NCBI RefSeq assembly: GCF_003572205.1
Contig: NZ_QXNY01000004.1
Location: forward strand, 744,548-808,547
Direction of reading: 5' to 3'
Length of the DNA stretch: 64,000 nt
Source of the DNA: Algihabitans albus
Lineage (GTDB): Bacteria; Pseudomonadota; Alphaproteobacteria; Kiloniellales; DSM-21159
Shown: positions 1,947 through 56,307 of the stretch, one piece after another
Numbering within the stretch: the stretch's first letter is position 1
How the letters are laid out: every line of letters starts with the position of its first letter
Program-made: the position numbers and the translations under genes
Notes under the pieces: generated by a model
The model's input: only the letters and a program-made list of their open reading frames with translations
What the model was told of the DNA's origin: nothing
Database searches by the model: none

Positions 1947-1952
1947 TTTTAC

Positions 1953-2320: not shown

Positions 2321-2373
2321 CGCCGGCTCGACCCTCCAGACAGTCCGGATCATCGACCGCTACAGAGACACGC

Positions 2374-2961: not shown

Positions 2962-2978
2962 AGCCTGGTCGGCCTGTT

Positions 2979-4901: not shown

Positions 4902-4927
4902 GTGAAGGAAGCGTGAGGGTGGAGTCG

Positions 4928-4968
4928 GGCCGCTCCGCCAGCACACCGTCGGAGCCGAAAGAGCGGCC
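4928..4968 (+). promoter_or_regulatory. hairpin immediately upstream of the ribbon-helix-helix gene start
   Basis: GGCCGCTC (4928-4935) pairs perfectly with GAGCGGCC (4961-4968), ending 3 bases before the ATG at 4972. The only purine-rich stretch available as a ribosome binding site lies in the 3' arm, so the stem could limit initiation. No T run follows, so it is not a typical terminator of fumC. Confidence 0.35.
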
Positions 4969-4971
4969 GCG

Positions 4972-5190
4972 ATGAAAAAGCGCTCCGTGGTGATCGCCGG
5001 GCATGCCACCTCTCTCACACTCGAGGAGCCTTTCTGGCAAGCGCTCAAGGAGATCGCCCTGGCGGAGGGCACGACGGTCAGCGCGCTGGTCGAAGCGATC
5101 GATGCGCGGCGCACCGAGGCCGGCGAGACCAACCTCTCCAGTGCGGTGCGCGTCTGGGTGTTTCGGCGCGTGAAGGAGGACCGGTCGTAA
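4972..5190 (+). CDS. ribbon-helix-helix domain protein (RHH_4 type)
   Basis: This 72-residue protein has the layout of the short ribbon-helix-helix DNA-binding family common in alphaproteobacteria. A beta strand (KRSVVIAGHATSLTL) is followed by helix 1 (EPFWQALKEIALAEG) and helix 2 (TVSALVEAIDARR). It follows fumC on the same strand, a neighbourhood often seen in the class together with a DUF4169 gene, which here lies 5 kb away at 9956. The target DNA is unknown. A hairpin covers the region just before its start. Confidence 0.85.
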   Translation: MKKRSVVIAGHATSLTLEEPFWQALKEIALAEGTTVSALVEAIDARRTEAGETNLSSAVRVWVFRRVKEDRS

Positions 5191-5196
5191 GCGACT

Positions 5197-6057: not shown

Positions 6058-6064
6058 GGCTGCC

Positions 6065-9000
6065 CTACTGCAGATTTCGGAACAAGCCCCTCAGAATTTC
6101 CTCGCCTTGCTCGCGCAGCTGGTCTTCCGGCGACGGCTCCTGTTGCGGCGCCGACGGTGCCTGGTCTTCGGTCGTTGGCCGTTGCTGCCCGCGCTGGAAG
6201 GGCTGGCCGGAGACCTTTACGTCGGGTTCGTCCAGCGATCCGCTCAGCAGAGCCGTCAGGTAGGGCTGTCGTTCCTGTCCGCGATAGAGGTCGGTCCGCA
6301 GGTCGAGTGTCCAGGCCGGCAGATCGGCGGCAATGCCCTGGCCGCGGGCTACGGCATCGCGGCCGGTCAGGGTAAGATCGCTGGTGCGTACGACGCCCTT
6401 CTCGATCGCGAAGCTGCCGCTCAACTGCGCCGGGGTACCGGCAAAGGCGCTGAAAACCGCGTTGACCGTATTGCTGAGTCCCCGCAACTCCCGGATCTGC
6501 TGACCCAGGATGCCCAGCAGCACGTTGCCGACGGCCTCCTCCGCGGTGGCCCGGACGGTGATTTGGCCGCCGACAGTGCCCTGACCGGCCAGGTTGCCGA
6601 CCAGCTGCGCTTCGCTGGCTCCCAGGCTGTTGCCGGTGATCCGCAGATCGATCGGACCGCTGACGCGCCCGGCGGCCGTCCCCTCCGATGGCGCCAGCTG
6701 CGCGCTGTCGAGTTGCGTGCCCGTCACATCGAAGTCGAGCCCGGCCGCGCGCGGGTCGCGGGCGTCTAGAGAGAGCGCCATGCGCAGGTTGCCGCCGAGC
6801 GCCCGGCCCGTCAGCGCGTCGATTTGCAGAAGCGAGTTCTCCAGACGCAGCGGGATCGTGGCGTTGGACAAAGCCAAATCCCCCTGACTGATCGAGGCCG
6901 CGGTGACATCGGCCGTGACGTTGAGCCCGGCGAGCGCGTCGAGGGGCAAGGGCTCGTTCGACCAGCGGCCGGGCGACTGCCCGCCACCGCCCGAAAGGCC
7001 GTCGTCAAGCAACCGATCGAGCGGGATCTGACCGAGCTGCAGGGTCGCCTGGATCGCCGGCCGGGCACCGGTCAGGGTGACGGCGGTCTCTCCGGCCAGG
7101 TCGGTCGGACCCAACCGACCGGTCAGGCCGCCAACCTGGATTTGCAGCGGCGTGCCGCTGATCCGAGCCGTCGCATTCAGCCCGACGCCGTCGCGCAGCG
7201 TCTGCTCCATACCCAGGGTGGTCAGCAGTCGGCCAAGCTGTGGAAGGTCGACGGCGGCGTCGAAGCTGTAGCTCATCTGCGAGCCGGTCACGCCGCTGGC
7301 CGTTCCGTTGCCCCGGATCTCTCCACCGAGCAATCCGAGCGTGGTGTCGTAACTCAGTTCGCCGTCGGGACTGCCGTTCATCGTGGTTGCGAGATTCAGA
7401 GCGCCGAGTCCCGCCAAGCGATCGGCTGCCGGGCCGATCAGGTCTGCGATTCTGCTCCCCGTCACCTCCCGCGCCGTCACGCGTAGATTTTCCAGGCGCA
7501 GCGTCTTGCCTTGCTGCACCCGGCCGGCGGCGGCGATGTTACCGCCCAGCGCCTGCCCCGACAGGTCCAGTGTGAGATCGTTGGCGTTTCCGGAGAGGGG
7601 ACCCGAGATCTGCAAGGCGCCCAATCGGGCCACGGGCGAATCGGCGAGCCCGGCGATCTGCGCCAGCCGCCGGGTATCGGAAAGCTCGAGAGACAGGCGC
7701 CCGTTCTCCACGGCAAGATTGCCAGCAGGCTGGCTCACCTGCCCGGCGAAGGCGAAGCTGCCTTCGGGGATCCGTGCGCGGAGATCGGTGCCGAAGGCGT
7801 CGAGGCTGCCGCTTGCCGTCCCGTCGACCGAGAGGCTGCCGAGCTGGGCGAGCGCGCCGGAGGCGGGCTGTTCCAACAGCCTGGCAAGCCGCTCGGTGTC
7901 GGGCACCTCGAGCCGAAACTGTCCGTCCGCCACCTCGGGGTTGTCCGGCAGACCGCTGATCACGCCGGCGAAGCTGGCGGACCCGCCCACCAGATCGCCC
8001 ACGGTGAGGGACTGAACGGTCAGGTCGGCGTCCTTCACCTGGGCCTGGAGCGTGAGGTCGTTGGTCTGTTGGCCGCCGTAGGTCAGATTGCCGACCAGGA
8101 TGTTGAGATTGGCGTCGAAGCTCTCGAGCGGGTTCGCGGCTTGCGGCTGCGCTTCGCCCGTTTCCGGGGTCGCCTGCTCGGCCTGCGCGACCTGTAGGTC
8201 ATCCGGTCCGCCGCCGCCGCCCGACCCGGTCAGGTAGGCGTCCAAGTTGATCCGGTCGACGCTGAGTCCGGCGCCGAAGGCCGGTTTGGCCCGTCCGAGG
8301 GCCAGGTTGATGCCGCCCTGAACTGTGGTGGAGTCGATTTCCAGCACCAGGCCGCTGAGTTGCGCGCGCGCCGGCGTGACGTCGACTGCGGTGGAAAGGG
8401 AGGCGCGGCGCAGTCGGTCGTTCGGGGCCGGCGGGAGCTCCAATTCCAGCCATTGGGCGAGGCCACGCAGGTTGTCGCTGGCTCCCTCCAGCGTCCCGGC
8501 GAAGCGCGGTATTCCTTCCTCCGCCGTCAGTCGACCGCTGACCGAGAGGTCGCCACCCGCCGGCAGCAGGGCCAAGGCCTGATCCAGCGTGACGGCCCCT
8601 TCTGCCAGGCGCCCGCTGACCAGGACCTGCCGTACGACCTGACCCTTGTAGACCAGCGCGTCGACGATCAGCTCGAAGCCCAGCGCGATATCTTGCGGCA
8701 GCACGAAGCCTCCGGCGGGTGCCTGGCCGCCGCCGCCGTCGAGCGGTGACTCGAGCAGATCGTCGAGGTCGAGGCGAGCGACGTTCAAGGCGACTTGCCC
8801 GTCCAGTTGCGACGCCAGGATCACCTCGGCGTCGCCGGTGGCGTTGGTGCCGCCGAGGGTGAGTTGCAAGTCGTTCAGATTCAGCGTCTCGCCGGCCAGA
8901 GCGATATCGCTGGAGAGCGCAAAACTCTCCGCCAACTGGGCCGGCAGTCCGCTGCCGGGGGCGAGCGCCTCGGCCAGCAGGGCGAGGTTTTCGCCGCCTG

Positions 9001-40874: not shown

Positions 40875-41686
40875 GCTTGCTCCGCCTGATAGGCTGGGGG
40901 GCGAGGCCAGGAAGGTGCCACAAGCCGCCGCCTTGGCATAAGAGGCTTGCCCGGCCCGCGGGCCGCGCTTAGCTCTCCGGTGCCGGTGAGGAAAGGGCGA
41001 CGACGCAGCCTTGGCGGTACGCCGACCGGTACGGAAAGGCGATCGGGCAACTCGCCATCGGAGGTTCCCTGCACGGTCTCCGGTGCCAGTACGCAAACGA
41101 TCGTCGTGGGGTCGCCGGCCGCCTGCCATGGATCGGCAGGCCACGGACATGCCTCCAGATCGAATACAATGATACTTCTCATGGGAAACTGTCGCATAGA
41201 TTGCCGAGACTCGATTCCACCCCATAAAGGAGATAGCCTTCCGAGGCCATCGACCGGGTTGCCTAGATGAGACAGAGAGGAGGCTGCCTTGCTGTTTCGG
41301 CTGCCTTGCGGAGTGAGCTCTTGGTTAGGGTGCTGGTGCAAAGGCCGTGCCGTGCGATGTTGTTCTGGGAGGACGATGGGGTGCGAGCGGTACCGAGGGC
41401 TCGTGAAATGGTAGCGGTATAGGGGGACGAAGACCGTAGGCGAACGGTCGCCGCCGCGATGGCGGATCTGGGAGAGGCCCGCGGCATCCGGTGTAAGTCG
41501 CTTGAAAGTCAGACTCTGCAGCTTGACAGCGTTCCTCGCCGTAGCTGCGGGAGAAGCCGCCAGGCTGAAGACGTTCGGCTGGCCGGCAACTCATTGCAAT
41601 CGTGCTTCGCCGTGGCGACTTTCCCGGCCTCGAAGATGCGTTAAATGATCGTGTGCGAATCCAAAGTTGGGACAAGGATGTCTGTT
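40875..41686. other. intergenic region with no recognisable intact gene
   Basis: About 810 bases between the formamidase-like gene and a divergent FadR-type regulator. Frames on both strands have no family I recognise. One minus-strand frame starting at 41180 (MRSIIVFDLEACPWPAD...) and one plus-strand frame starting at 41268 look like possible decayed coding remnants, but neither has a convincing ribosome binding site. It marks a probable seam between two accessory segments. Confidence 0.35.
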
Positions 41687-42454
41687 ATGCCTTTCCGGCC
41701 CATTGAGTCAGAGAGCATTGCCGAGGCCGCCGCCGCGCAAATCCGGGAACTGATTGCGGAAGACGTGCTGCGCCCGGGGGACCGCCTGCCGAGCGAGCGC
41801 GAGCTGTGCGAACACATGAAGGTTTCCCGTACTTCCCTCCGCGAGGCGGTCAAGGCGTTGATTTCCGAAAAACTGCTGGAGTCGCGCAGGGGGGCTGGGC
41901 TTTTCGTTTCGACGCATGTGGGCGCCGACCTCGCGTCCCCGCTACGCAGTCTGATCGAGGCGCAGCCCAGGGCGATCGATGACTACATCGTGTTCCGTCG
42001 GATGTTGGAAGGCGAGTGCGCCGCCGCCGCGGCGACAACGGCGACGAAGATCGAGCGGCTGCGGATTCTCAGACTGCTGCAGCAGCTCGAAGAAGCCGCC
42101 AAGAATCACGATCAAAATACCGAGGCCGCGCTCGATACGGAATTCCACATGGCTATCGTCGAAGCGGCCCGTAACGTTGTCGCTATTCAGGTCACCCGAA
42201 GCTTGCTGGATCTGCTCCGCCGGGGCATCGGCTATAGCCGGGCGCTTATCTTCGACGATGCGGAGGCGCGAGCGAAACTGCTGGATCAGCATCGGGCCAT
42301 CGCGCAGGCGATCGATGCGCGCGACGCCCAGAAGGCCCGCGAGAAAATGCACGTTCATCTCGATTTCGTTCTCAAAATGCTGCAGCAGAAGCGAAAGGAT
42401 GCCGGTGCGCATGCACTGGCCAGCCGTCGTGCGGCTTGGGAAAAAAGAGCGTGA
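41687..42454 (+). CDS. FadR/GntR family regulator with FCD domain
   Basis: This 255-residue repressor-type protein has a GntR winged helix (ESIAEAAAAQIRELIAEDVLRPGDRLPSERELC-like, with VSRTSLREAVKAL as the recognition region) and an FCD domain with conserved ligand/metal residues in DTEFHMAIVEAARN and QHRAIAQAI. AAGGA lies 8 bases before ATG 41687; earlier in-frame ATGs at 41645 and 41678 are alternatives. It reads toward the redox gene cluster and the palindrome at 42659, so it is the likely regulator of that cluster. Confidence 0.9.
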   Translation: MPFRPIESESIAEAAAAQIRELIAEDVLRPGDRLPSERELCEHMKVSRTSLREAVKALISEKLLESRRGAGLFVSTHVGADLASPLRSLIEAQPRAIDDYIVFRRMLEGECAAAAATTATKIERLRILRLLQQLEEAAKNHDQNTEAALDTEFHMAIVEAARNVVAIQVTRSLLDLLRRGIGYSRALIFDDAEARAKLLDQHRAIAQAIDARDAQKAREKMHVHLDFVLKMLQQKRKDAGAHALASRRAAWEKRA

Positions 42455-43315: not shown

Positions 43316-43768
43316 ATGGCGGTTGTGAGGATCAGCGGAGAGGACCGTGATCTCGATGGCCCCGACGACATGACCTTGTTGTGGGCGCTTCGAGATCTGG
43401 CTGGGCTAACCGGGACGAAGTACGGGTGCGGCGTCGGTCTCTGCGGCGCCTGCACGGTGCATGTCGACGGCGTCGCTGCGCGTAGCTGCATGCTGACCGT
43501 CGCGGAGGTTGCGGGCAAGGAAATCACGACGATCGAGGGGCTCTCGCCGACTGGCGATCACCCGGTGCAGGCGGCATGGCGTGAACTCAACGTGCCGCAG
43601 TGCGGTTTCTGCCAAGCCGGCCAGATCATGCAGGCCGCAAGTTTGCTGGCCGCGAATCCAAGCCCGACAGACCAAGAGATCCTTACCGAAATGGAAGGCA
43701 ACGTCTGCCGTTGCGGCTGCTACGAGCGCATTGTCGCCGCCGTCCGTCTTGCCGCTACGGGGAGCTGA
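43316..43768 (+). CDS. [2Fe-2S] small subunit of a molybdenum hydroxylase
   Basis: This 150-residue iron-sulfur subunit of the xanthine-dehydrogenase superfamily (IorA/CoxS type) carries electrons from the molybdenum site. The plant-ferredoxin-like cluster ligands are C38, C43, C46 and C58 (YGCGVGLCGACTVH). The second cluster ligands are C96, C99, C131 and C133 (QCGFCQAGQ and NVCRCGC). It has no signal peptide, so it is probably exported folded together with the TAT-bearing large subunit. It lies 3 bases before that gene. No FAD subunit gene is nearby. Confidence 0.93.
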   Translation: MAVVRISGEDRDLDGPDDMTLLWALRDLAGLTGTKYGCGVGLCGACTVHVDGVAARSCMLTVAEVAGKEITTIEGLSPTGDHPVQAAWRELNVPQCGFCQAGQIMQAASLLAANPSPTDQEILTEMEGNVCRCGCYERIVAAVRLAATGS

Positions 43769-43771
43769 GTC

Positions 43772-46102
43772 ATGCTGCACTATCTCGAGCAAGCCGCCAT
43801 CACGACCTCGACGACATCGCCGGGTGCCAATTGGGAAACGAGACTCGCGAAAGTTTCGCGTCGCGGATTCCTGGCCGGCGGTGCCGCCGCCTTGTCGATT
43901 GCCGCCTTCGCTGGCCCGGCCGAGGCTTTCAAGCGCTATCCCGTCGGCGGCGAGCAGATGCCCCACGGGCTGCGCGACAACCCCCTCGTCTTCGTCACGC
44001 TCTATCCCGATGGCAGCGTCGAGATCGTCGCCCATCGATCGGAGATGGGCCAGGGCGCGCGCACCTCGCTCCCGATGGTGGTCGCCGATGAGATGGGTGC
44101 CGACTGGTCGCGTGTAACCCTGATCCAGGCCGAGGGTAACGAGCCGAAGTACGGTAATCAGGATACCGACGGTTCGCGGTCCATGCGGCATCACCTGCAG
44201 AGTATGAGACAGATCGGAGCGTCGGTCCGGCTCATGCTCGCGAGAGCGGCGGCCGAGCAATGGGGTGTCGAGATCGACAAGGTCGAGGTTGGCGTCCATG
44301 AGGTTTCGAGCGGTGCCAACTTGGCCGGCTTCGGCGAGCTGGCGGCGGCGGCGATGCTGCAGCCGGTCCCGGCCTTCGAGGAGCTGTCCTTCAAGGAGGA
44401 GTCCGAGTTCCGCTACATCGGTAAGGGCAATGTGGAGATCTACGATCTGCACGACATCACCACCGGTAAGGCCATCTACGGCGCCGATGTGAGGCTGCCG
44501 GGCATGAAGTTCGCCGTGATCGCGCGTCCGCCGGTCGTCGGCGGCAAGGTCCGAAGTTTCGACGCGCGTCGGGCATTGGAGCTTCCCGGTGTCGAGCAGG
44601 TGATGGAATTGCCGGGGTCGATCCCGCCGGCCAAGTTCGCCCCGCTCGGGGGCGTTGCAGTCATCGCCAGCAACACCGATGCCGCGATCAAGGGCCGCGA
44701 TGCGCTCGAGATCGAGTGGGACGATGGCCCCCATGGCGGTTACAACTCCGCAGCCTTTCTGGCCGAGATGCGCGAGACCGCCAAGAAACCAGGCGAAATA
44801 CTGCGCGATGAGGGGGACGTCGACGCAGCCTTCGGATCGGCGGCGCGTTCCTTCGCACGGGAGTACTCTCAGGCTCACATGGTGCACGCCGCCATGGAAC
44901 CGCTGGTTTCCGTCGCGAACGTCACCAACAGCGGCGCCGAGCTTTGGGCCCCGGTACAGTCTCCGTCGGCCGCCCGGCAGGACGTTGCGACGGCACTCGG
45001 TATGGACATGTCGGACGTCAGGATGAATGTCACCTTGCTGGGCGGCGGCTTCGGGCGGAAGTCGAAATGTGACGACGTGATCGAGGCCGCGCTGATCAGT
45101 CAGGCGATCGGCTCACCCGTCAAGGTCCAGTGGACTCGGGAAGACGACATTCGTCACAGCTTCAACCACACCACCTCGGTGGAGCGGATCGAGGTCGCGC
45201 TCGATGCCTCGGACAAGATCGTCGCCTGGCGCCATAACTCCGTGGCGCCCTCGATCCTCTCGACCTTCGCACCGGACAGCGGTCATCAGTTCTTCATCGA
45301 GTCCGGCATGGGACACGTCGACATGCCGTTCGAGATCCCGAACGTGCGCTGCGAGAACGGCAAGGCGATGGCGCATACCCGGATCGGTTGGTTCCGCGCG
45401 GTCTCGAACATCCCGCGTGCCTGGGCGATCCAGTCATTTGCCGCCGAACTCGCGGATGAGCTCGGCAAGGATCAGCGCGAGATGCTGCTGGAGTTGATCG
45501 GTGCCGATCGCCAGCTCGACCCGGAAGCTCAAGGTTTCCCCGATGACTACTGGAACTACGGCGAAACCTATTCCGCCTATCCCATCGACACCAAACGCCT
45601 GAAGGGCGTGTTGAACCTCGCGGCCGACAAGGCCGGTTGGGGCGCAGAGATGCTGGCCGGCGAGGGCTGGGGTCTCGCGGTTCATCGCTCCTTCGTCACC
45701 TACGTCGCTTCCGCGGTGCGTGTGAAGATCGAGGAGGGTCGGATCACCGTGCCCGAGGTGCATATGGCCGTCGACTGCGGCTTTGCCGTAAACCCGGAAC
45801 GTATCCGCAGCCAAATGGAAGGTTCCGCGGTGATGGGGATGACGCTCGCGCTCCACAGCGGCGTCACCTACGAGAACGGTGCCGTCGTCCAGTCGAACTT
45901 CAACGACTACCCCATGGTCCGCTCGACCAACTTCCCGAAGAAAGTCCACACCCACATCGTCGAGCATCCCTTCTCCGTGCATGCATCGGGAGTGGGGGAG
46001 CCCGGATTGCCGCCGATCGCACCGGCACTTGCCAACGCGGTCTTCAACGCGACCGGCAAGCGACTGCGCGACCTGCCGATGGGCGATACCGTCGAGACTT
46101 GA
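43772..46102 (+). CDS. molybdopterin-binding large subunit, xanthine dehydrogenase family (TAT exported)
   Basis: This 776-residue catalytic subunit resembles the beta subunit of isoquinoline 1-oxidoreductase and periplasmic aldehyde dehydrogenases. A twin-arginine signal (SRRGFLAGGAAALSIAAFAG) starts near residue 29, so the enzyme acts in the periplasm. A GGGFGRK molybdopterin loop is near residue 426, and the catalytic Glu is E743 in GVGEPGLPP. It hydroxylates an N-heterocycle or oxidises an aldehyde; the substrate is not deducible. The absence of a flavin subunit fits electron transfer to a periplasmic carrier. Confidence 0.92.
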   Translation: MLHYLEQAAITTSTTSPGANWETRLAKVSRRGFLAGGAAALSIAAFAGPAEAFKRYPVGGEQMPHGLRDNPLVFVTLYPDGSVEIVAHRSEMGQGARTSLPMVVADEMGADWSRVTLIQAEGNEPKYGNQDTDGSRSMRHHLQSMRQIGASVRLMLARAAAEQWGVEIDKVEVGVHEVSSGANLAGFGELAAAAMLQPVPAFEELSFKEESEFRYIGKGNVEIYDLHDITTGKAIYGADVRLPGMKFAVIARPPVVGGKVRSFDARRALELPGVEQVMELPGSIPPAKFAPLGGVAVIASNTDAAIKGRDALEIEWDDGPHGGYNSAAFLAEMRETAKKPGEILRDEGDVDAAFGSAARSFAREYSQAHMVHAAMEPLVSVANVTNSGAELWAPVQSPSAARQDVATALGMDMSDVRMNVTLLGGGFGRKSKCDDVIEAALISQAIGSPVKVQWTREDDIRHSFNHTTSVERIEVALDASDKIVAWRHNSVAPSILSTFAPDSGHQFFIESGMGHVDMPFEIPNVRCENGKAMAHTRIGWFRAVSNIPRAWAIQSFAAELADELGKDQREMLLELIGADRQLDPEAQGFPDDYWNYGETYSAYPIDTKRLKGVLNLAADKAGWGAEMLAGEGWGLAVHRSFVTYVASAVRVKIEEGRITVPEVHMAVDCGFAVNPERIRSQMEGSAVMGMTLALHSGVTYENGAVVQSNFNDYPMVRSTNFPKKVHTHIVEHPFSVHASGVGEPGLPPIAPALANAVFNATGKRLRDLPMGDTVET

Positions 46103-46190: not shown

Positions 46191-47981
46191 ATGAGGACGG
46201 TTCGATCGAAGCTGCTGCTCGCCTGCAGTACGCTAGCCTTCAGTTTGGCTTCCCTTCAGGCTTTCGGGCAAACCTTGAACCGGGTCAATCAGGAGATCAC
46301 TGACTACAGCCCTGTTACGAAAGAGCGTCTCATTGAAGCCGATCCAAGTGACTGGCTGCTCCCGAAAGGCAACTACGAAGGGTGGATGCACAGCGCGCTC
46401 GATCAGATCAACACCGAGAACGTTCGGCAGCTCACGCCCGTCTGGACCTATTCGACGGGTGTCGATTCAGGTCATCAGGCTCCGGCCCAGGTGAACGATG
46501 GCGTGATGTTCATCACCACGCCGTACAATCACGTCATCGCCCTCGATGCGAAGACCGGTCAGCTTTTCTGGCGATACGAGCATGACAACCCGAGCGATCT
46601 GGGCGTCATGCACAACACGGCCCGCGGTGTCGCGCTGTGGGAGGATAAGGTCTTTGCCGCCGGCCTCGACGGAACCTTGAACGCGCTTGACGCGAGAACC
46701 GGCGAACGCCTCTGCCAGAACGTCATCGGCGACTGGAGCATCGGTGCCTACATCACCTCTGCGCCAATGCCGATCGAAGGCAAGATCATGGTCGGTCCGT
46801 CTGGTGGCGAGTTCGGTGTTCGTGGGTTCTTGGAAGCGACCGATGCCGACACTTGCGAGACGGTGTGGAGAACCTACAGCGTTCCCGGTCCCGGCGAAGC
46901 GGGCCATGAGACCTGGCTCAAGGAAGGTCAGCGTCCCGACGCCTGGAAGTACGGCGGCGGCAGTATGTGGATGCCGGGGAACTATGATCCGGAGACTGGG
47001 GTGCTCTACTGGGGCGTCGGCAATGGATCGCCGTGGCTCGGCGACCAACGCCCCGGCGACAACCTCTACGTCGCCTCGGCGCTCGCGATGGACCCCGAGG
47101 ACGGCGAGATCGTCGGGCATCACCAGTACCACTGGAACGACTCCTGGGACTGGGCCGCGATGAACGCCCCCATGCTGCTGGACTTCGAGCACGACGGCAG
47201 CACCGTCAAGGGACTGATGTCACCCCAGCGCAACGGCTACATGTTCTGGATGGAACGCATGCCGGACGGCGAGATCAAGTACCTGGAGGGCAAGCCGTAC
47301 GTCTACAACAACGTCTTCACGGAACTCGATCCCGAGACAGGGCGTCCCTCCTACGACCCGAACCATACTCCGGTAACGGGAAAGCGGGTGGGCTATTGCC
47401 CGAGCCTCTGGGGTGGAAAGAACTGGCCCTATGAAGCCTTTAATCCGCAGACCGGCCTGATGTACGTCCCGGCGAACGAAAACCTCTGCAACTCTTTCAT
47501 CGGGATTTGGCAGGACGATGTCGACCCGGCTTCCGGCCAGTTCTGGGCTGGGATCGATATTCCGGACTTGGACGTTTATGTCAACGACCCGAGCAAGGGC
47601 GTCGGACAGCTCCAGGCTTGGGATGTGAACACCCGCGAGATGGTCTGGCAGCACGACTTCGGCAAGACGATGAACTGGGGTCCGGTTCTGTCGACCGCCG
47701 GTGGCCTGGTATTTGGAGCCGGTACGAACGACAGGAAGTTGCGGGCCTTCGACGCCGTAAGCGGTGAGATCTTGTGGGAGTTCCCGCTGAACTCGACGGC
47801 CATCGCACCGCCGGTCAGCTACACTGTGGATGGCAAGCAGTACATCGCAGTCACCGCCGGCTATGGCGTCGACGCGCAGTGGACCAACGGTGTGCTGGCG
47901 GCCAAGGACGAGACCAACGAGTGGATCGCAGACGTGCCCGAAGGCGGTGTCGTCTGGGTCTTCGCGCTTCCTGAGAGCTAA
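46191..47981 (+). CDS. PQQ-dependent alcohol dehydrogenase, methanol-dehydrogenase-like
   Basis: This 596-residue periplasmic eight-bladed quinoprotein has a signal peptide ending SLASLQAFGQ. Tryptophan-docking-like repeats (for example GQLFWRYEHDN and GEILWEFPLN) recur along the chain. Metal and PQQ residues can be placed at E207 (SGGEFGVRG), N278 (VGNGSPW) and catalytic D320 (NDSWDWAAMN). Position 322 is Ala, as in calcium-type MxaF and unlike the Asp of lanthanide XoxF. The vicinal Cys-Cys of methanol dehydrogenases is replaced by M140-H141 (GVMHNTARG). No cytochrome domain is fused. TTTGGAGGA precedes ATG 46191. Confidence 0.92.
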   Translation: MRTVRSKLLLACSTLAFSLASLQAFGQTLNRVNQEITDYSPVTKERLIEADPSDWLLPKGNYEGWMHSALDQINTENVRQLTPVWTYSTGVDSGHQAPAQVNDGVMFITTPYNHVIALDAKTGQLFWRYEHDNPSDLGVMHNTARGVALWEDKVFAAGLDGTLNALDARTGERLCQNVIGDWSIGAYITSAPMPIEGKIMVGPSGGEFGVRGFLEATDADTCETVWRTYSVPGPGEAGHETWLKEGQRPDAWKYGGGSMWMPGNYDPETGVLYWGVGNGSPWLGDQRPGDNLYVASALAMDPEDGEIVGHHQYHWNDSWDWAAMNAPMLLDFEHDGSTVKGLMSPQRNGYMFWMERMPDGEIKYLEGKPYVYNNVFTELDPETGRPSYDPNHTPVTGKRVGYCPSLWGGKNWPYEAFNPQTGLMYVPANENLCNSFIGIWQDDVDPASGQFWAGIDIPDLDVYVNDPSKGVGQLQAWDVNTREMVWQHDFGKTMNWGPVLSTAGGLVFGAGTNDRKLRAFDAVSGEILWEFPLNSTAIAPPVSYTVDGKQYIAVTAGYGVDAQWTNGVLAAKDETNEWIADVPEGGVVWVFALPES

Positions 47982-48131: not shown

Positions 48132-48812
48132 ATGGTGTCTTTCAAGAACTCTGAAGACGGGAACTGCAACGACACGGCCGAGGGCTGCGGGTGCTCGGGG
48201 CCTGCCAGCGAAGGCGTCGGGACGGAAAGCCGTCGAACGGTCGTGAAGAGCTTCCTGCTGGCCGCTTTCGCCTTCAAGGGATTGGTTTCAGCCCGGTCCG
48301 CGCTGGCCGATACGGCGGCCTTGCCGGACGAGGAGAAGAGGAAGCTCCCGCCGCAGGTGGGCGACCGCCTGACCTATTTCAGCAAGAGACGGCGTGGGCC
48401 CTTCCTGAAACTCGAGGATCTGGAGACGGCCGGCAAGCAGCTGGTGGTGGTTCCCATCGAGAAGGAAAGTGGAATTGTCCGCGATGGATCGCGTCACAAC
48501 CAGATCCTTCTGCAACGTTTCGATACCTCGGACCTGATGCCGGACACATTGGCCAACTCCGGTGACGGGGCGGTGGCCTACTCGGCCATCTGCACGCACA
48601 ACGGCTGTCCAGTGACGGCGTGGGACAGAGATGCCCAAACCTTCATGTGCCCCTGTCATCAAAGTCAGTTCAATCCGAAGAACGCCGCTTCGGTCGTGGA
48701 AGGTCCGGCGCCGCGCGAGCTGCCCGCCCTCCCGCTTCGTGTCGAGAACGGCGAAATCGTCGTGGCCGATGCATTCACCGCCCGCGTGGGTCATGGCCGG
48801 AAAGGAAGCTGA
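48132..48812 (+). CDS. TAT-exported Rieske [2Fe-2S] protein
   Basis: This 226-residue electron carrier has a Cys-rich N-terminus (NCNDTAEGCGCSG) followed by a twin-arginine signal ESRRTVVKSFLLAAFAFKG. The Rieske motifs are C154-T-H156-NG-C159 and C173-P-C175-H176-Q-S, so all four cluster ligands and the disulfide cysteines are present. It could accept electrons from the molybdenum or PQQ enzyme. No cytochrome b gene is nearby, so it is not part of a bc1 complex. The next gene starts 7 bases after its stop. Confidence 0.92.
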   Translation: MVSFKNSEDGNCNDTAEGCGCSGPASEGVGTESRRTVVKSFLLAAFAFKGLVSARSALADTAALPDEEKRKLPPQVGDRLTYFSKRRRGPFLKLEDLETAGKQLVVVPIEKESGIVRDGSRHNQILLQRFDTSDLMPDTLANSGDGAVAYSAICTHNGCPVTAWDRDAQTFMCPCHQSQFNPKNAASVVEGPAPRELPALPLRVENGEIVVADAFTARVGHGRKGS

Positions 48813-48819: not shown

Positions 48820-49314
48820 ATGACGATCCGGTTCGGCCCCGCAGCTGACGGGAGCGGCAAGCGTCGGCGTTTCACCGGCTGCTTCGTGGCGGCACTCTGT
48901 CTGCTTCTGCTTGCTCAACCTGGTAACACAGTTCAGGCCGCGACGCCGATCACGGGCGTGAGTTGCGGCGGTGGCTTCTTCGTCAAGATACGCAGTCACG
49001 AGGTTTTCTGGATTCAGACCGAAGAAGAGAAACGGACGTCCGTCTACAATGGCGGATCGCCGATCTTTGCAATGGCGCAGTGTGGAACGGGCGTCTTGAC
49101 GGTTTTCGGAACGGGCGATCAGGAAACCCGGAACTATGACATCTACCATAGTCCCGACTGTCGGAAGATCGGAGAGGCCGGCGGCAACACGACCCTGGTT
49201 CACAGCAGTCCTCTGCAGGTCACCAGGATCACGCCCGAAGAGTCAGGCGTCAGTCTGCGGTTTTCAGATGGTAGCGTCGTGCGCAGCGACATCTGCAGCT
49301 TGCCGGGAAGGTAG
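48820..49314 (+). CDS. small secreted protein of unknown function
   Basis: This 164-residue protein has a signal peptide (CFVAALCLLLLAQPGNTVQAA). The mature part, about 120 residues, is predicted beta-rich and has four cysteines (VSCGGG, AQCGTG, SPDCRK, SDICSL), which could form two disulfides. I do not recognise a family. Tight packing between the Rieske gene (7 bases) and the di-heme fusion gene (5 bases) says it works with them, perhaps as an assembly or binding partner. Confidence 0.8.
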   Translation: MTIRFGPAADGSGKRRRFTGCFVAALCLLLLAQPGNTVQAATPITGVSCGGGFFVKIRSHEVFWIQTEEEKRTSVYNGGSPIFAMAQCGTGVLTVFGTGDQETRNYDIYHSPDCRKIGEAGGNTTLVHSSPLQVTRITPEESGVSLRFSDGSVVRSDICSLPGR

Positions 49315-49319: not shown

Positions 49320-52300
49320 ATGCCGCCGTGCGAGCGACTGCGTCTCCTCTTTACCCGACTGGCTAAAGCGGCGGTCTGCCTTGTCTTGCTGTGGCCTCCC
49401 GGTCTTTCGTCTGAGGTCGAGGCGGAGGACGGGCTCTTTTCGGAGGACGCCCTTCTCGACGCGCAGCTGGATCTGATAAAGGCGCGTCACGGAGCGGATC
49501 TCTTTCTCGACTCCGACGATCTGCCCGCGCCAGCAAGCCCGGGCCTGGTGAAGTTGGGGCGGGAGCTCTTCTTCAGCAAGTCGCTCAGCGGGAACATGGA
49601 CGTCGCCTGCGCGAGTTGTCATCACCCGCTTCTTGCCGGCGGGGACAAACTCAGTCTCCCAGTCGGCGAGAGCGCTTACGATCCGGACCTGTTGGGACCG
49701 GGGCGGTGGCACGACTGGAGGGCGTCGGGCGACCCGAAGGCGAATGGCGCACCCAATGTGCCCCGGCACTCGCCGACGACCTTCAACAGCGGGCTCTATC
49801 GGCATGCGATGTTCTACGATGGGCGCCTTTTTCTGCTCGACCCCGACAGGCCGGAACTGGGTCTGGCGGCGCGGCATCGAACGCCCGACAGCGTCCTGCT
49901 GCACGCGGACCCCGGTGCAGGCAGGAGCATCATGGCTTCGCAGGCACGCTTTCCCGTGGTGTCTCCGCAGGAGATGCAGGGCTTTCACTTCGGAGCCGAC
50001 CGGTCTCACGAGGAAGTGCGCGATGCTCTGGTCGATCGACTGAGAGGGACCACGGGTGAATTGTCCAGGAACGCCTGGCTGACATGGTTCCGTGAGGCCT
50101 TTCAGGCACCGGACGGCACGGCCGCCGAGCTGATCACCTTCGAAAACCTGCAGGATGCGCTGGCTGCCTACCAGGATTCGCAGATCTTCGTTGACAACGA
50201 TTGGACTGCATACCTGGCTGGCGACGAAAGCCGCCTCGATACGCAGGAAAGGCGGGGAGCGGCGATCTTCTTCCTGCCTCCTGAGCAGGGAGGGGTGGGC
50301 TGCGCCGTTTGCCATACGCCACCGATCTTCTCCGATGAGAAGTTTCACAATATCGCGGTGCCGCAGTTCGGTCGCGGTATCCAAGCGGACGGCCAGGATT
50401 TCGGCCGCCGTGGTGTGACCCAAAGAGACGAGGATCGTTTTCGCTTCCGGACGCCTTCCTTGTTCAACGTCGCGCGAACCATGCCCTACGGACATACCGG
50501 GGCGTTTCTTGATTTGCGCGATATGCTGGATCATCATCTGGACCCCCAGCAGTCGATCTCTCGTTTCGATTTCGATTTCAGCGATAACGGTCAGCTTCGC
50601 CATGTGAGTTCGCTCTACGCGAATGCCGAGTCCTTGACCCGTGCGGCGCTTCGCGATCTCGAGAAAAAACAGTCGCTCGGCCTGAGTGCCTTGCCGTCGG
50701 GTCTGGAGCTTTCGGACGCGGACGTCGATGCGCTCGAGCGTTTCCTGCATGCCTTGACCGACCCCTGTCTCGACAGCCACAGCTGTCTGAGTCACTTGAG
50801 TCCCGATGAAGACGAGCCAAGCCCCGACAACAACCGTCTGGTCGCGCGCTTTGCACCGCATGGGCCGCCTCCCTCTGGGCTCGCGACGGAACGTCATGCC
50901 GATGAGACGCCCCGATCCGGCCGTCACGATCCGCAAGTCGGAAGCGCGGACCCCGTAGTACGAACTGACTGTACGCACGGCCTGCCGGGCGCGAATGCCG
51001 GCGGTTTCGTCTTCGACGAGGTGGCGCTGGAGGCCGGACTCACGGCGAGGCATCAGGTTTCCTGGGAGCTCTATAGGTTCGAGACGGCGCAGCGTGTGCT
51101 CTTTACCGGCGGTGTCGCCGCCGGCGACCTGGATGGCGACTGTTGGCCGGACATCTATTATCCGACGGGGGATACCGCCGCCGATGTTCTCTACCGCAAT
51201 GACGGAAGCGGTGGGTTCGAGGATATCTCGGAAGCCTGGGGTATCGTGAAGACGGACTTTTCGAACGGTGCGGCGATGGCCGACCTGGATGGCGATGGCC
51301 ACCTCGACCTGATCACGACGAATATCGTGCACCCCGAAAAGCCTTCGATCCTGGGACAAGCCTCTGGAGCGGAGCGATCGCAGATCCCGACGATCTATCG
51401 CAACGAGGACGGGGAGCGGTTTTCCCTATGGCACGGCTTGGGAATCGGGGCCGATTTCACGAGCTGGTCCTTCTCGTTTGGAGACTACGACGCGGATGGC
51501 GACCTCGATGCGCTCTCCACGCATTGGCGTGGACCGGGCTTGGGCGGAGCGCAACCGAACCATCTCTGGAGGAACAACGGTGCCGACGAAGGCAAAGCCT
51601 TCACGCCGGAGGATCGTCCCGCGGGTCTGCTGGGCATGGTTGGCAAGTCGGACTTCACCTTCACCGGAACCTTCTCGGATTTCGATCTGGACGGCCGGCC
51701 CGATATTCTCATGGCGTCGGACTTCGAAAGCAGCCAAGTCTACAGAAATCTGGGGAATGGCCGCTTCGCCAACGTGACCGCGGCCAACGAGATCAGCGAC
51801 GAGAACGGCATGGGCTCCGCCGTCGCCGACTACGACAACGATGGGGATCTGGACTGGTTCGTCAGTAGCATCTGGGATCCCAACGGATTCGCCGAGGGAA
51901 CCTGGGGCGTCACCGGAAACCGGTTGTATCGGAACGACCGGGGTGTGTTCGTCAATGCGACAAAGGCGTCCGGCGTTACCGAAGGCTACTGGGGATGGGG
52001 TGCATGCTTCGCCGACTTCAACAACGATGCCTGGCCCGATCTGTTCCACGTGAATGGCTTCGATCTGCAGACCCAGATGGCACGCCATCTCGGACCGCCG
52101 CAGGTTTTCGTATCCTTGCGGCGCTCGATGCTGGAGTTCGAGAAAACGCCGAGCAGACTTTTCATGTCAGATCGAGAGGGTGGGTTCGTCGAGCGTTCCG
52201 CGGCGTGGGGCATTACGGATACGAAGTCGGGACGGGGCGTCGTTTGCTTCGACTATGACCGCGATGGCGACGTGGACATCCTGGTGAGCAATCACAACGA

Positions 52301-52625
52301 CCGGCTATTGCTCTATAGGAACAACGCCCGTTCGATGCCCGACACGAATTTCATCACGGTGTCCCTGCGCGGGCGCGGCAAGAACTCCGGGGCGGTCGGG
52401 GCCAGAGTCTACGTGACGGCGAACGGCACGACTCAGCTCCAGGAAGTGAGAGCGGGTGGAAGCTTCCTCTCGTCTTCGCCGCAGGAACTGCATTTCGGCT
52501 TGGGAAGCTCCGAAACAATCGATCGGATCAAGGTGGTTTGGCCTCGACCGTATTACGAGAGCAACGTCCTGACGGATGTATCGGTCAATCAATTCGTGAC
52601 CATCGAGCAGCCAACCGACAACTGA
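49320..52625 (+). CDS. di-heme MauG/cytochrome c peroxidase fused to FG-GAP/VCBS repeats and ASPIC/UnbV domain
   Basis: This is an 1101-residue exported protein with an N-terminal hydrophobic segment (LAKAAVCLVLLWPPGL). Residues about 45-490 form a di-heme peroxidase/MauG-like module with heme sites C97-ASC-H101 and C328-AVC-H332, and a TPSLFNVARTMPYGHTGAF segment after the second heme. An unstructured linker follows. Seven calcium-loop motifs DxDxDGxxD-like lie near residues 603, 655, 722, 787, 837, 899 and 978, as in FG-GAP/VCBS beta-propellers. The C-terminus (about 1010-1075) is ASPIC/UnbV-like. The fusion order is unusual. The frame is continuous with uniform codon use, so it is not a sequencing fusion. 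Confidence 0.9.
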   Translation: MPPCERLRLLFTRLAKAAVCLVLLWPPGLSSEVEAEDGLFSEDALLDAQLDLIKARHGADLFLDSDDLPAPASPGLVKLGRELFFSKSLSGNMDVACASCHHPLLAGGDKLSLPVGESAYDPDLLGPGRWHDWRASGDPKANGAPNVPRHSPTTFNSGLYRHAMFYDGRLFLLDPDRPELGLAARHRTPDSVLLHADPGAGRSIMASQARFPVVSPQEMQGFHFGADRSHEEVRDALVDRLRGTTGELSRNAWLTWFREAFQAPDGTAAELITFENLQDALAAYQDSQIFVDNDWTAYLAGDESRLDTQERRGAAIFFLPPEQGGVGCAVCHTPPIFSDEKFHNIAVPQFGRGIQADGQDFGRRGVTQRDEDRFRFRTPSLFNVARTMPYGHTGAFLDLRDMLDHHLDPQQSISRFDFDFSDNGQLRHVSSLYANAESLTRAALRDLEKKQSLGLSALPSGLELSDADVDALERFLHALTDPCLDSHSCLSHLSPDEDEPSPDNNRLVARFAPHGPPPSGLATERHADETPRSGRHDPQVGSADPVVRTDCTHGLPGANAGGFVFDEVALEAGLTARHQVSWELYRFETAQRVLFTGGVAAGDLDGDCWPDIYYPTGDTAADVLYRNDGSGGFEDISEAWGIVKTDFSNGAAMADLDGDGHLDLITTNIVHPEKPSILGQASGAERSQIPTIYRNEDGERFSLWHGLGIGADFTSWSFSFGDYDADGDLDALSTHWRGPGLGGAQPNHLWRNNGADEGKAFTPEDRPAGLLGMVGKSDFTFTGTFSDFDLDGRPDILMASDFESSQVYRNLGNGRFANVTAANEISDENGMGSAVADYDNDGDLDWFVSSIWDPNGFAEGTWGVTGNRLYRNDRGVFVNATKASGVTEGYWGWGACFADFNNDAWPDLFHVNGFDLQTQMARHLGPPQVFVSLRRSMLEFEKTPSRLFMSDREGGFVERSAAWGITDTKSGRGVVCFDYDRDGDVDILVSNHNDRLLLYRNNARSMPDTNFITVSLRGRGKNSGAVGARVYVTANGTTQLQEVRAGGSFLSSSPQELHFGLGSSETIDRIKVVWPRPYYESNVLTDVSVNQFVTIEQPTDN

Positions 52626-53289: not shown

Positions 53290-55587
53290 TTAGTCCGCGT
53301 CGAACAGATGTACCGAGAAGAGGTTCTCCGCATCCGTCCAGGCCTTTACGGCGCTGAAGCCGGCGTCCTTCGCAAGGGCTTGGAATTCAGGAACCGTGAA
53401 CTTGTGGGAATTCTCGGTGTGAATGGTCTCCCCGGGTTCGAAATGGAACTTGTGCCCCGCGACTGTCACGGTCTGGCGGTTCCGACTGCGCAGATGCATT
53501 TCGATGCGGCCCGCCGCTTCGTTGAACAGAGCCAGATGCTCGAAGGCGTCGAGGTCCAGATCGCCGCCGAGTTCTCGTTCGATGCGGACGAGGATATTCT
53601 TGTTGAATCGACCGGTGACGCCGGCGCTGTCGTCGTAGGCCGCTTCCAGTCGCGCCTTATCCTTCTTCAGATCGACGCCGATGACGAGAGCGCCGCCGCT
53701 GCCGACCGCTTCGCGTATGCGCTCCAGCAAGAGCCGGGCTTCCAAAGGATCGAAATTGCCGATGGTCGAACCCGGAAAGAAGGCGCAACGCCGTCCCGCC
53801 TCGCCCAACCAGGCGGGGAGACGGATCGGCTTCGTGAAGTCCTTGGCGATCGTGTGAACGCGGAGGCTCGGATAGGCGGCTTCCAGGCTCTGCGCGGACT
53901 GCTCGAGCTGCTCTTCGGAGATATCGATGGCGACGAACGCGTGAGGGTCTTGCAGGCAGTCGAGCAACCGTCTGACCTTGGACATCGCGCCGGAGCCGTA
54001 CTCCACCAGAACCGGCCGCAGCCCGAGCGCCTCGGCGATGGCGGGTGCGACTGTCTCCAGGATCCCGGTTTCCGTCCGCGCTGGATAGTATTCGGGCAGA
54101 TCGCAGATCGCCTCGAACAGTTCGGCGCCCGTCTCGTCGTAGAACCATTTGGCCGGCAGGCTCTTCGGCGTATCCGATAGCCCCACGACCACGTCATTGA
54201 GAAACGCGAGGGTCGAGGGGTCGGCGGGCGTCTCCTGCGGTTCCTCGGTCTCCGTCAGCGGGGGAAGCTCCACGCTGCGCTGTGCGCAGTCGTCGGCTAG
54301 GCGGATGCCGGTGAACTGCCAACGATCGGCTGGATAGAAGAAGTTGCGGTAGGTCGGCCGCACATGTCCCTCCGGCGTGACGCAAGAGCCGCCACGCAGG
54401 ACCATCTGGCCCGACATGAACTTGCCGTTGTATTCGCCGACCGCGCCCTCGGCGGCTTTGAAGCTGGGATAGGGACGGTAGGCGTTGGCGGTCCACTCCC
54501 AAACGTCGCCATAGATCTGCCGGAGTCCGTCCCCACGAGCCGGGACAGGATGGTATTCGCGAGACCCTGCGAAGTTGCCGGCTGGTGTCAGCGGTGTGGC
54601 GACGACCTCCCATTCCGCCTCGGTCGGAAGGCGTTTTCCGGCCCAGGAGGCGTAGGCGTCGGCCTCGAAAAAACTGACATGACAGACCGGCGCGTCGGGG
54701 TCGAGGGGGCGTAGACCGGCGAGCGTGAAGATTCGCCAGTCGTCGGTCTCGGTGCGACTCCAGTAGAGGGGAGCCTGCCAGCCATGCGCCTTGCAGGCCG
54801 CCCAACCATCGGCGAGCCACAGCTCCGGACGTGTGTAGCCGCCGTCTTGCATGAAGGCCAGGAACTCGCCGTTGGTGACCGGCCGGCTCGCCAGCTTGAA
54901 GGGCTCCAGCCAAATTCTGTGGCGGGGACCCTCGCAATCGAAAGCGAAGTCGTCGGCGCCGTGCCCGATTTCGACCAGTCCCCCCGCGTGTTCGATCCAA
55001 TCCCAGGTGCGGGTCCGGCTTGCGTCTCTTGGCCGCGGTGGCTGATAGGCGGGCTTCAGCGGATTGCACGAGAGGACATGCTTGATGTCGGTCAGCAGCA
55101 GTTCCTGATGCTGCTGTTCGTGATGGCAACCGAGTTCCAGCAGCGTCCAAGGCCCCGCATTCGTGTCGTCGTGGCCGGCCAGGACCTGCTTGAGCGCATC
55201 TTCGACATGCGCTCGGTAGGCGAGAACTTCGGAGAGGGAGGGGCGGGACAGGAGGCCACGCTTGGGGCGCTCATGGCGTGGACCGACTTGCTCGTAATAG
55301 GAGTTGAAGAGGAACCCGAACTTCGGATTGAACACTTCGTAGTCGTCGGAAAAGGCCTTGAGGATGAACTCCTCGAAGAACCAAGTCGTGTGCGCCAAGT
55401 GCCATTTGGTCGGGCTGACATCGGGCATGGACTGGATGCACTGATCCTCGGCGCTTAGCGGCTCGGAAAGGTCCAGGGTTCGCCGGCGCACCGCGCTGAA
55501 CTGATCGAGGCGGCGTTCCACTTCCGGCGCGCGCGCAGTGTCCGCCTGCTCGGGAGGGTCCTGCGGGGGATAGGGACGATGGTCCAT
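53290..55587 (-). CDS. fused ergothioneine enzyme EgtB-EgtD
   Basis: One 765-residue chain carries both core steps of ergothioneine synthesis. Residues about 1-440 are EgtB, the iron-dependent sulfoxide synthase. A DinB-like domain has metal histidines in HLAHTTWFFEEF (near 62) and CHHEQQHQE (near 154), followed by a FGE-sulfatase domain with GDVWEWTANAY and RGGSCVTP. Residues about 455-765 are EgtD, the SAM-dependent histidine trimethylase (KWFYDETGAELFEAICDLPEYYPARTE-like start, VEYGSGAMSKVR, and FPGSTIGNFDP). ATG 55587 follows CGGAAG; an ATG at 55611 has no site. No egtC or egtE is adjacent. Confidence 0.93.
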   Translation of the reverse strand: MDHRPYPPQDPPEQADTARAPEVERRLDQFSAVRRRTLDLSEPLSAEDQCIQSMPDVSPTKWHLAHTTWFFEEFILKAFSDDYEVFNPKFGFLFNSYYEQVGPRHERPKRGLLSRPSLSEVLAYRAHVEDALKQVLAGHDDTNAGPWTLLELGCHHEQQHQELLLTDIKHVLSCNPLKPAYQPPRPRDASRTRTWDWIEHAGGLVEIGHGADDFAFDCEGPRHRIWLEPFKLASRPVTNGEFLAFMQDGGYTRPELWLADGWAACKAHGWQAPLYWSRTETDDWRIFTLAGLRPLDPDAPVCHVSFFEADAYASWAGKRLPTEAEWEVVATPLTPAGNFAGSREYHPVPARGDGLRQIYGDVWEWTANAYRPYPSFKAAEGAVGEYNGKFMSGQMVLRGGSCVTPEGHVRPTYRNFFYPADRWQFTGIRLADDCAQRSVELPPLTETEEPQETPADPSTLAFLNDVVVGLSDTPKSLPAKWFYDETGAELFEAICDLPEYYPARTETGILETVAPAIAEALGLRPVLVEYGSGAMSKVRRLLDCLQDPHAFVAIDISEEQLEQSAQSLEAAYPSLRVHTIAKDFTKPIRLPAWLGEAGRRCAFFPGSTIGNFDPLEARLLLERIREAVGSGGALVIGVDLKKDKARLEAAYDDSAGVTGRFNKNILVRIERELGGDLDLDAFEHLALFNEAAGRIEMHLRSRNRQTVTVAGHKFHFEPGETIHTENSHKFTVPEFQALAKDAGFSAVKAWTDAENLFSVHLFDAD

Positions 55588-56307
55588 GACGTCACACTTC
55601 CGTTCAAGCATTCAAGTCAGGGGATAAGCGGATGGGGCGGAGGGGCCTGATCTATCGGAGCGATCGACTCCTCAATCGGCAGGTCTCCGTCGTAATGCAC
55701 TCTCAGGCGGTAGCGTCCTGGGCAGCTACGATCCGATATCGAGGGGCGAGTTCAAATGTCCCGGCTCTTGGCCAAGCATTTGGGGGCGAGGTCTCTCGTG
55801 GCCAGGGATCTTGCCGTGGGGATTTTGTGGCCTGAGAGTCCAGGCCCAAAGCTTCGGTCCGCATGCCACCCGCCTCGCTGGTCCGTTTTTGCGGTGCCTA
55901 TCGTTAAACTATCGAAAGGCTGGCTCGGTTCAATGCCTCACGGGTCGCGGACAGAAAAAAAGTCACACGGCGGCGAAAGCTCGAGGATCGTCCGGCCGGG
56001 ATTTTGCGGTCGAAGCGCGCTTCGTTGTTGCCCGCTGGTCGTTTTGAACCGCGGGCGTTTTTGACCCTGCTTACAGTTGATTTATGGGTGTATGTCTCTC
56101 CATGACGACGCGCTATACGAAAGTAAAAGCATCGAATATATTCGTGCGCAGATATTTTTTATAATTCTCATGGTTGCTATCTAAGGTCGAATAGTACGTA
56201 TATTAACGTGTCTCGAGGTGTTAACTTAAAATTATCCGACATTGTATTACTTCATAGCCCTACTGGGCGCCGGCTTGTACGGCGTCGATCAACCGATCGG
56301 CTCGGCT
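55588..56307. other. intergenic region between egtBD and the hybrid kinase gene
   Basis: These 720 bases carry no recognisable gene. The last 200 bases (about 56080-56260) are markedly AT-rich compared with the genome and probably hold the kinase promoter. An in-frame extension of the kinase to 56242 is not conserved-looking. Confidence 0.4.

Follow-up and report, generated by a model that had tools for sequence, protein, structure and literature searches.

A di-heme CCP_MauG domain fused to a CRTAC1-like propeller in Algihabitans albus and its conserved association with a PQQ dehydrogenase, a Rieske protein and a small cysteine-containing protein

Architecture of the fusion and its operon

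We analyzed a 64,000-nt stretch of the Algihabitans albus genome (the window; assembly GCF_003572205.1, contig NZ_QXNY01000004.1, positions 744,548-808,547 of the forward strand), in which one open reading frame (ORF) joins a di-heme domain of the CCP_MauG superfamily to a propeller of the CRTAC1-like FG-GAP/ASPIC type (Table 1). This fusion architecture is conserved and, in 7 of the 15 distinct loci that carry it, is tied to a defined four-gene unit with a pyrroloquinoline quinone (PQQ)-dependent alcohol dehydrogenase (PQQ-ADH), a Rieske protein and a small protein with four conserved cysteines. A first-pass annotation had described a MauG-like module, seven calcium-type loops and a UnbV-like C terminus in an uninterrupted frame, and this description holds throughout: the frame runs for 1101 codons, the two CxxCH motifs (CASCH and CAVCH) lie exactly at the residues assigned to them, and all three domains exceed their Pfam cut-offs, CCP_MauG (PF03150) with 86.0 bits (cut-off 25.6), FG-GAP_3 with 137.8 bits over six stretches (cut-off 26.9) and UnbV_ASPIC with 71.1 bits (cut-off 23.4). 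The CCP_MauG score together with the two CxxCH motifs places the fusion in the CCP_MauG superfamily, and the FG-GAP and UnbV_ASPIC scores together with a seven-bladed fold place it among the CRTAC1-like FG-GAP/ASPIC proteins.

Two CxxCH motifs were reached in none of 2000 composition shuffles. The first residues of the seven Dx[DN]xDx loops are 603, 655, 722, 787, 837, 899 and 978, and two loops are imperfect (DLDGDC and DFNNDA). Overlapping D.[DN].D[GA] matches number 8; 2000 shuffles of the same composition gave 0.30 on average and never more than 4. The fusion is not an assembly joint, because 14 further loci carry it too. The di-heme domain and the CRTAC1-type half are each known already; their fusion and the conserved unit are named in none of the titles and abstract beginnings listed in searches of the open-access literature.

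Table 1. Features of the fusion and of the neighboring genes (window positions)
Feature	Position	Strand	Basis
Fusion protein, 1101 aa: di-heme CCP_MauG, linker, seven-bladed FG-GAP propeller, UnbV_ASPIC	49320..52625	+	single open frame
Di-heme CCP/MauG-type domain, ~residues 70-490	49527..50789	+	Pfam CCP_MauG; phmmer to solved di-heme peroxidases
First heme c site CASCH, residues 97-101	49608..49622	+	invariant in alignment A1; 42/42 MauG-domain rows
Tyr166, inter-heme Trp position	49815..49817	+	aligned to FWDGR Trp of 4aal
Gln208, Pro212, Glu218, distal pocket of peroxidatic heme	49941..49973	+	42/42 rows
Second heme c site CAVCH, residues 328-332	50301..50315	+	alignments; Cys, Cys, His in 42/42 rows
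His406, MauG Tyr294 axial-ligand position	50535..50537	+	MauG-chain alignment
Poorly conserved linker, ~residues 491-560	50790..50999	+	gappy in alignment A1; pLDDT <50 at 512-545
Seven-bladed FG-GAP propeller	51000..52349	+	Pfam, structure model, fold comparison, loop scan
UnbV_ASPIC domain, residues 1025-1093	52392..52598	+	Pfam
GntR-type regulator (name by eye)	41645..42454	+	homologue beside fusion in L012, 37% identity
2Fe-2S subunit of molybdenum enzyme	43316..43768	+	Pfam, NCBIfam
Molybdenum-cofactor oxidoreductase large subunit, twin-arginine-like motif	43772..46102	+	Pfam; all listed NCBIfam matches below cut-off
PQQ-dependent alcohol dehydrogenase, no heme domain found	46191..47981	+	TIGR03075 524.4 bits, cut-off 480.05; Pfam
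Rieske 2Fe-2S protein, twin-arginine-like motif, bc1-type CTHNGC / CPCHQS	48132..48812	+	Pfam, NCBIfam, motif
Small protein, 164 aa, signal-like N terminus (by eye), four conserved Cys	48820..49314	+	homologues in 6 other loci

The operon of the window runs from the 2Fe-2S subunit through the molybdenum oxidoreductase, the PQQ-ADH, the Rieske protein and the small protein to the fusion, with gaps of 7 nt between the Rieske and small genes and 5 nt between the small gene and the fusion. Judged by its context, the molybdenum enzyme may be of the aldehyde-oxidoreductase type. The PQQ-ADH has no match in the PDB at an expectation value (E) of 1e-100, and the Rieske protein resembles those of bc1 complexes and arsenite oxidase, below the NCBIfam cut-offs. 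At 48132-48220 the Rieske frame has a cysteine-containing stretch (CGC) ahead of the twin-arginine-like motif, with similar stretches in loci L012, L068 and L118. The small protein has no Pfam match at E up to 1 and no NCBIfam match; four Cys outside its signal region are conserved in seven aligned sequences, so that an earlier description as cysteine-rich was generous. A scan for promoters and terminators gave counts at the level of shuffled sequence (2 vs 1.8 and 9 vs 8.2).

Fold of the propeller and residues of the di-heme half

Modelled alone from 22 sequences, the propeller half reached a predicted local distance difference test score (pLDDT) of 87.5 and a predicted template modelling score (pTM) of 0.92, and seven blades followed by a C-terminal sandwich were counted by hand from its strand list. 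In structural alignment (VIA-align) the top match was murine CRTAC1 (9etn; Z 37.6 over 459 residues, root-mean-square deviation 2.7, 21% identity), clearly ahead of LGI1 (Z 29.9) and ordinary propellers (Z about 23-26). The fusion thus shares a seven-bladed propeller and an ASPIC domain with CRTAC1 and the ASPIC-UnbV FG-GAP proteins, but differs from CRTAC1 in its low identity, its fused di-heme domain and its bacterial origin; we know of no role for the bacterial CRTAC1/ASPIC proteins. Aldos-2-ulose dehydratase (Z 26.2) was dropped as a clue to propeller function because unrelated propellers score 23-26. Structure prediction, proposed in the first-pass annotation as a check, succeeded for this half and failed for the whole: the full-chain AlphaFold model (pLDDT 66, pTM 0.53) is too poor to guide the arrangement of the two halves and was discarded.

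Among solved structures the first half matches di-heme peroxidases best (4aal, E 2.1e-22 with phmmer). Residue counts were made over 42 aligned di-heme rows. All of them retain Q208, P212 and E218, which give the Gln/Pro/Glu pocket of a peroxidatic heme. Position 406, which in the alignment corresponds to MauG residue 294 (Tyr in MauG), is His in 41 rows and Tyr in one (L067); by the same alignment the best-scoring MauG chain, 3orv, also has His there, and we take 3orv to be the Y294H variant. No alignment to the Met ligand of bacterial cytochrome c peroxidase (bCcp) was obtained, and His406 occupies the place of MauG Tyr294. Position 166, presumably bCcp Trp94 and MauG Trp93 in their own numbering, is His in 26 rows, Trp in 9, Tyr in 4 and Thr, Asn or Gln in one each. 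One fused clade (L015-L020, L027) has Trp there; in the PQQ-type clade the residue is Tyr in the window, L012 and L068 (and, by motif, L117-L119), Thr in L013 and Asn in L014. In L117-L119 the second-heme motif ends in HH.

According to the excerpts of a study of BthA (PMC6405878), that enzyme has a Glu/Gln/Pro distal pocket and Ser in place of the inter-heme Trp; its Y463H variant, like MauG Y294H, loses the near-infrared bis-Fe(IV) feature while retaining H2O2 reduction, and its E277Q variant is impaired in both. Read alongside these mutants, residues 406, 166, 208, 212 and 218 lead us to expect peroxidase activity of the fusion and do not support MauG-type bis-Fe(IV) chemistry. The natural His at the MauG Tyr294 position would make the fusion a native counterpart of the Y294H and Y463H mutants. 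Compared with the di-heme peroxidases and BthA, which provide its best structural matches and share the pocket and, in BthA, the absence of an inter-heme Trp, the fusion differs in a predicted His rather than Met or Tyr as ligand of the second heme and in its 600-residue extension of linker, propeller and ASPIC domain. With MauG it shares the Pfam domain, two c-type hemes and an alignable chain, but it has His for Tyr294 (by alignment only), Tyr for Trp93 and a fused CRTAC1-like half, and it scores 77.6 bits against a cut-off of 443.85 with the MauG model (TIGR03791). The nearest curated models, the His-Xaa-Ser-associated MauG-like family (TIGR03981, 171.3 bits) and MbnH (TIGR04039, 105.4 bits), likewise score far under their cut-offs of 340 and 362.85. 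None of the six operon proteins scanned matched a mau family; no genome-wide mau search was made.

These residues bear directly on the function first suggested, in which the di-heme site performs MauG-type radical oxidation on a partner presented by the propeller, for example the PQQ enzyme or the small protein. In a general form, the di-heme module would oxidize Trp or Tyr of a propeller-held partner, or of the propeller itself, as MauG does and CorB-type enzymes are proposed to do. For CorB and SACCP, two CCP_MauG relatives, a role in forming the kynurenine of CorA and MopE has been proposed (excerpts of PMC3912023), and the small protein is conserved in seven loci and encoded next to the fusion. 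For action in cis, W891, W893 and C896 of the propeller are invariant in the 11 fusions of alignment A1, yet the same columns are equally invariant in alignment A3, where 12 of the propellers lack a MauG domain. The His at the Tyr294 position, the lack of an inter-heme Trp and the low MauG and MbnH scores speak against maturation, which we disfavor and regard as quite improbable.

Distribution, the four-gene unit and a proposed electron path

A pattern scan of a genome collection of 84,980 species returned 22 related loci, of which 10 (L012-L020, L027) carry both halves. In sampled genomes the full fusion was found in 1 of 385 from the class of the window (its own genome), 2 of 398 from the phylum (its own and G701) and 9 of 295 from the L016 family. 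With duplicates recognized by contig coordinates (G900 equals G701; G800, G977, G981, G942 and G993 equal L016, L020, L027, L018 and L017), there are 15 distinct fused loci (the window, L012-L020, L027, L068 and L117-L119), near-copies (L018/L027, L016/L020 and L117/L119) included. The searches miss distant relatives, the long profile scored at most two candidates per genome and the genome samples overlap; within this coverage the architecture looks rare. ORFs in the loci were chosen mechanically, and the FG-GAP-only and MauG-only rows were recruited by their similarity to the fusion and are no census of either family.

The genome of the window has one UnbV_ASPIC match and three CCP_MauG matches. 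Horizontal transfer of the fusion is likely, because no full-length fusion was found in the 60 other genomes searched of the same order while relatives with the same gene order sit in other groups. In trees built by a quick method (Shimodaira-Hasegawa-like approximate likelihood ratio support only, one long branch marked), 12 fused di-heme domains and the MauG-only L065-L067 form one set with support of 100.

The seven loci with the four-gene unit are the window, a Hyphomicrobiaceae metagenome-assembled genome (MAG; L012), a Rhodobacteraceae MAG (L013) and four members of the L016 family (L068, L117, L118 and L119). All six operon genes of the window are present in L013; the L012 contig starts within the PQQ gene, and the molybdenum genes have no match in the stretches covered of L068, L117, L118 and L119. 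The suggested tie of the fusion to the PQQ enzyme and the small protein is therefore conserved, in 7 of 15 loci, although their role as substrates of maturation is not supported. Four of the seven (L012, L117-L119) have an LldD-like gene close to the unit. Four (L068, L117-L119) have an aldehyde dehydrogenase upstream, past two reverse-strand genes, and a TonB-dependent receptor downstream. The aldehyde dehydrogenase of L118 scores above the cut-off of PRK10090, which we take to be AldA, the lactaldehyde/glycolaldehyde enzyme. These neighbors fit a route from alcohol through aldehyde and hydroxy acid to keto acid, and the LldD-like and AldA-type genes near the unit point to a short diol or a similar alcohol as its putative substrate.

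Quinoprotein alcohol dehydrogenases usually hand their electrons to cytochrome c, and PQQ is made by a separate pathway that includes PqqE. Among ORFs of at least 80 aa between 40000 and 56000 of the window, the fusion is the only one with CxxCH. The same genome encodes PqqE (560.6 bits, cut-off 381.35) and two further PQQ-ADHs above cut-off (contigs C2 and C6), one ending in a cytochrome c domain (35.3 bits, cut-off 27.0) and the other with a weak cytochrome c match (26.2 bits, below that cut-off) in an ORF that lies 0.8 kb downstream. Neither adjoins a CCP_MauG gene, the three CCP_MauG matches lying on contigs C1 and C4. MauG-like maturation of the PQQ-ADH was rejected as the main explanation on account of residues 406 and 166, the fusions in fructan loci (5 of 15; see below) and the two PQQ-ADHs that have no di-heme neighbor; the presence of PqqE also argues against it.

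In the same genome, a stretch of contig C1 (L142, C1:78500-90000) carries at 667-6169 an arsenite-oxidase-like large subunit (TIGR02693, above cut-off), together with a Rieske small subunit just below cut-off and two CCP_MauG genes directly upstream of the oxidase-like genes. It is the second place in this genome with di-heme genes beside a Rieske gene.

We tentatively favor a reading, possible though short of probable, in which the fusion is the electron-accepting peroxidase module of a periplasmic alcohol-oxidizing system and is docked by its propeller. The PQQ dehydrogenase would convert an alcohol, which might be a short diol, into an aldehyde, which the molybdenum enzyme in the window, or AldA-type and flavin mononucleotide (FMN)-dependent hydroxy-acid dehydrogenases in the relatives, would process further. 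The Rieske protein, alone or together with the small protein, would carry the electrons away from PQQ in place of a soluble cytochrome c. They would enter the presumably exported fusion at its His/His-ligated second heme and move on to the open first heme, at which Gln208, Pro212 and Glu218 would support reduction of H2O2. The calcium propeller and ASPIC domain would serve as a docking platform for the electron donors, and in relatives that look lipoprotein-like by eye the propeller might keep the enzyme beside the outer-membrane uptake machinery. Such a chain, from PQQ through the Rieske and di-heme centers to peroxide, is plausible in view of the fusion being the sole CxxCH ORF, the cytochrome c matches of the other PQQ-ADHs, the bc1-type motifs of the Rieske protein and the arrangement in L142.

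A Gln/Pro/Glu triad kept in 42 of 42 rows would suit a generic periplasmic peroxide defense, to which the fusion and its gene context are incidental. This we think quite unlikely: the gene order with the same three partners is conserved across loci from different classes, and the association with FG-GAP/ASPIC occurs in two separate lineages.

Sugar-related settings and relation to known systems

In five loci with glycoside hydrolase family 32 (GH32) and fructan-type genes, the fusion directly follows a SusC-type receptor and SusD (L016, L017 and L020 in Catenovulum, L018 and L027 in Glaciecola); the naming of these loci rests on Pfam matches of five L016 and two L018 proteins and otherwise on similarity. 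In L014 it is followed by a sigma/FecR-like pair (by eye) and a TonB receptor, and L015 and L019 have no clear context, the contigs of L014 and L019 ending close to the fusion. A split version is found in nine loci of the f30 family, which is in the class of the window and may belong to the Rhodobacterales (L072, L073, L075, L078, L079, L081, L083, L085 and L087), where a di-heme gene stands tail to tail with an FG-GAP gene, some pairs overlapping; the UnbV_ASPIC domain of the FG-GAP gene was confirmed in the one locus checked (L072). These loci contain a ROK-type regulator cluster (9 of 9), a sugar-permease cluster (XylH by eye; 9 of 9) and a XylF cluster (8 of 9), and in L073, where XylB, XylA and XylF exceed their NCBIfam cut-offs, the di-heme ORF begins directly after xylA. 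In the trees the split rows form a distant lineage in both halves, so the pairing of di-heme domain and propeller probably arose at least twice.

To compare partners, we matched ORFs of at least 100 aa from seven PQQ-type, five fructan-type and nine xylose-type stretches at E 1e-8. PQQ-type and fructan-type loci have in common the fusion and a weak TonB-receptor match (L068 with two fructan-type loci), PQQ-type and xylose-type loci the di-heme part plus a single match, which joins distant genes of L013 and L081, and between fructan-type and xylose-type loci all matches come from the fusion, the best being to the di-heme genes. Save for the TonB-receptor and distant-gene matches, then, no partner is common to the three settings, which counts further against maturation, and with almost no ORFs in common with the fructan-type loci (5 of 15) the PQQ enzyme and the small protein are both excluded as the general substrate.

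The same settings suggest that the propeller might bind carbohydrate, with the di-heme module oxidizing it or shielding the uptake machinery at the cell surface from peroxide. The position of the fusion behind SusC/SusD in the GH32 loci, the tail-to-tail pairs beside xylose genes and the adjacency of other MauG-only relatives to tripartite ATP-independent periplasmic (TRAP) transporters or a sugar kinase agree with this idea; against it, the six operon proteins of the window that were scanned include neither glycoside hydrolases nor TonB receptors, and the aldos-2-ulose dehydratase match does not rise above ordinary propellers.

Several points weigh against a peroxidase module fed by the PQQ enzyme. 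The heme ligands, including the predicted His/His pair of the second heme, are read from alignments, and the heme half of the AlphaFold model has pLDDT <50 over most of residues 105-172 and 333-394. A His/His heme is expected to have a lower potential than a Met-ligated one and hence to be a poorer acceptor. Canonical bCcp has a Met-His high-potential heme (excerpts of PMC6405878). The PQQ-type clade lacks the inter-heme Trp that the other fused clade has, an absence that may make electron transfer from heme to heme slower, and physical contact of the Rieske protein, the PQQ-ADH and the fusion is assumed. A comparison that looked for LldD and AldA-type genes in the window found neither. The fructan-type stretches covered contain no PQQ-ADH or Rieske homologue, so the electron donor there must differ, and sugar may be the more general theme of the fusion; for this reason the carbohydrate reading, unlikely as we hold it to be, keeps a place beside the peroxidase reading.

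A broader proposal would combine the two themes: a quinoprotein system that has exchanged soluble cytochrome c for a Rieske protein and a propeller-docked di-heme peroxidase, coupling alcohol oxidation to peroxide reduction in one assembly, with the di-heme/CRTAC1 pairing, fused or split, acting in sugar-uptake loci as a general periplasmic redox module. We offer this as speculation and hold it to be unlikely.

Hydrazine synthase provides a parallel for the pairing of domains. According to excerpts of PMC12758564, its CCP-like gamma subunit is paired with a seven-bladed propeller, has a bis-His second heme and carries His where CCP and MauG have Trp, and some homologues have a CRTAC1-annotated gene between the alpha and beta-gamma genes. 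The same inter-heme His is found in 26 of our 42 di-heme rows, whereas the fusion has Tyr there and a propeller of another family. None of the 29 PDB sequences that match the fusion at E 0.01 is a hydrazine synthase chain, in a comparison made by sequence, the heme-half model being too poor for a fold search.

The fusion and the separately evolved split pair directly join the CCP_MauG and CRTAC1/ASPIC families. For the electron supply of a CCP_MauG enzyme, the conserved four-gene unit names candidate partners.

Some further gene neighborhoods were observed. A MauG-like gene directly follows a TRAP transporter cluster in L074, L082, L084, L086, L089 and L090; L074 has in addition an alkanesulfonate-type monooxygenase and a flavin reductase, each below cut-off, a gene set that to us resembles a sulfosugar monooxygenase pathway. 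Of 14 FG-GAP-only loci of the L016 family, seven (L124, L126, L127, L129, L130, L131 and L134) have a tryptophan-halogenase-like gene directly before the FG-GAP gene, and in six of these a TonB receptor stands before the halogenase-like gene. Downstream of the fusion in the window, a 773-aa ORF on the reverse strand (53290-55611) seems by eye to consist of an EgtB-like half and a methyltransferase half like EgtD (ergothioneine type).

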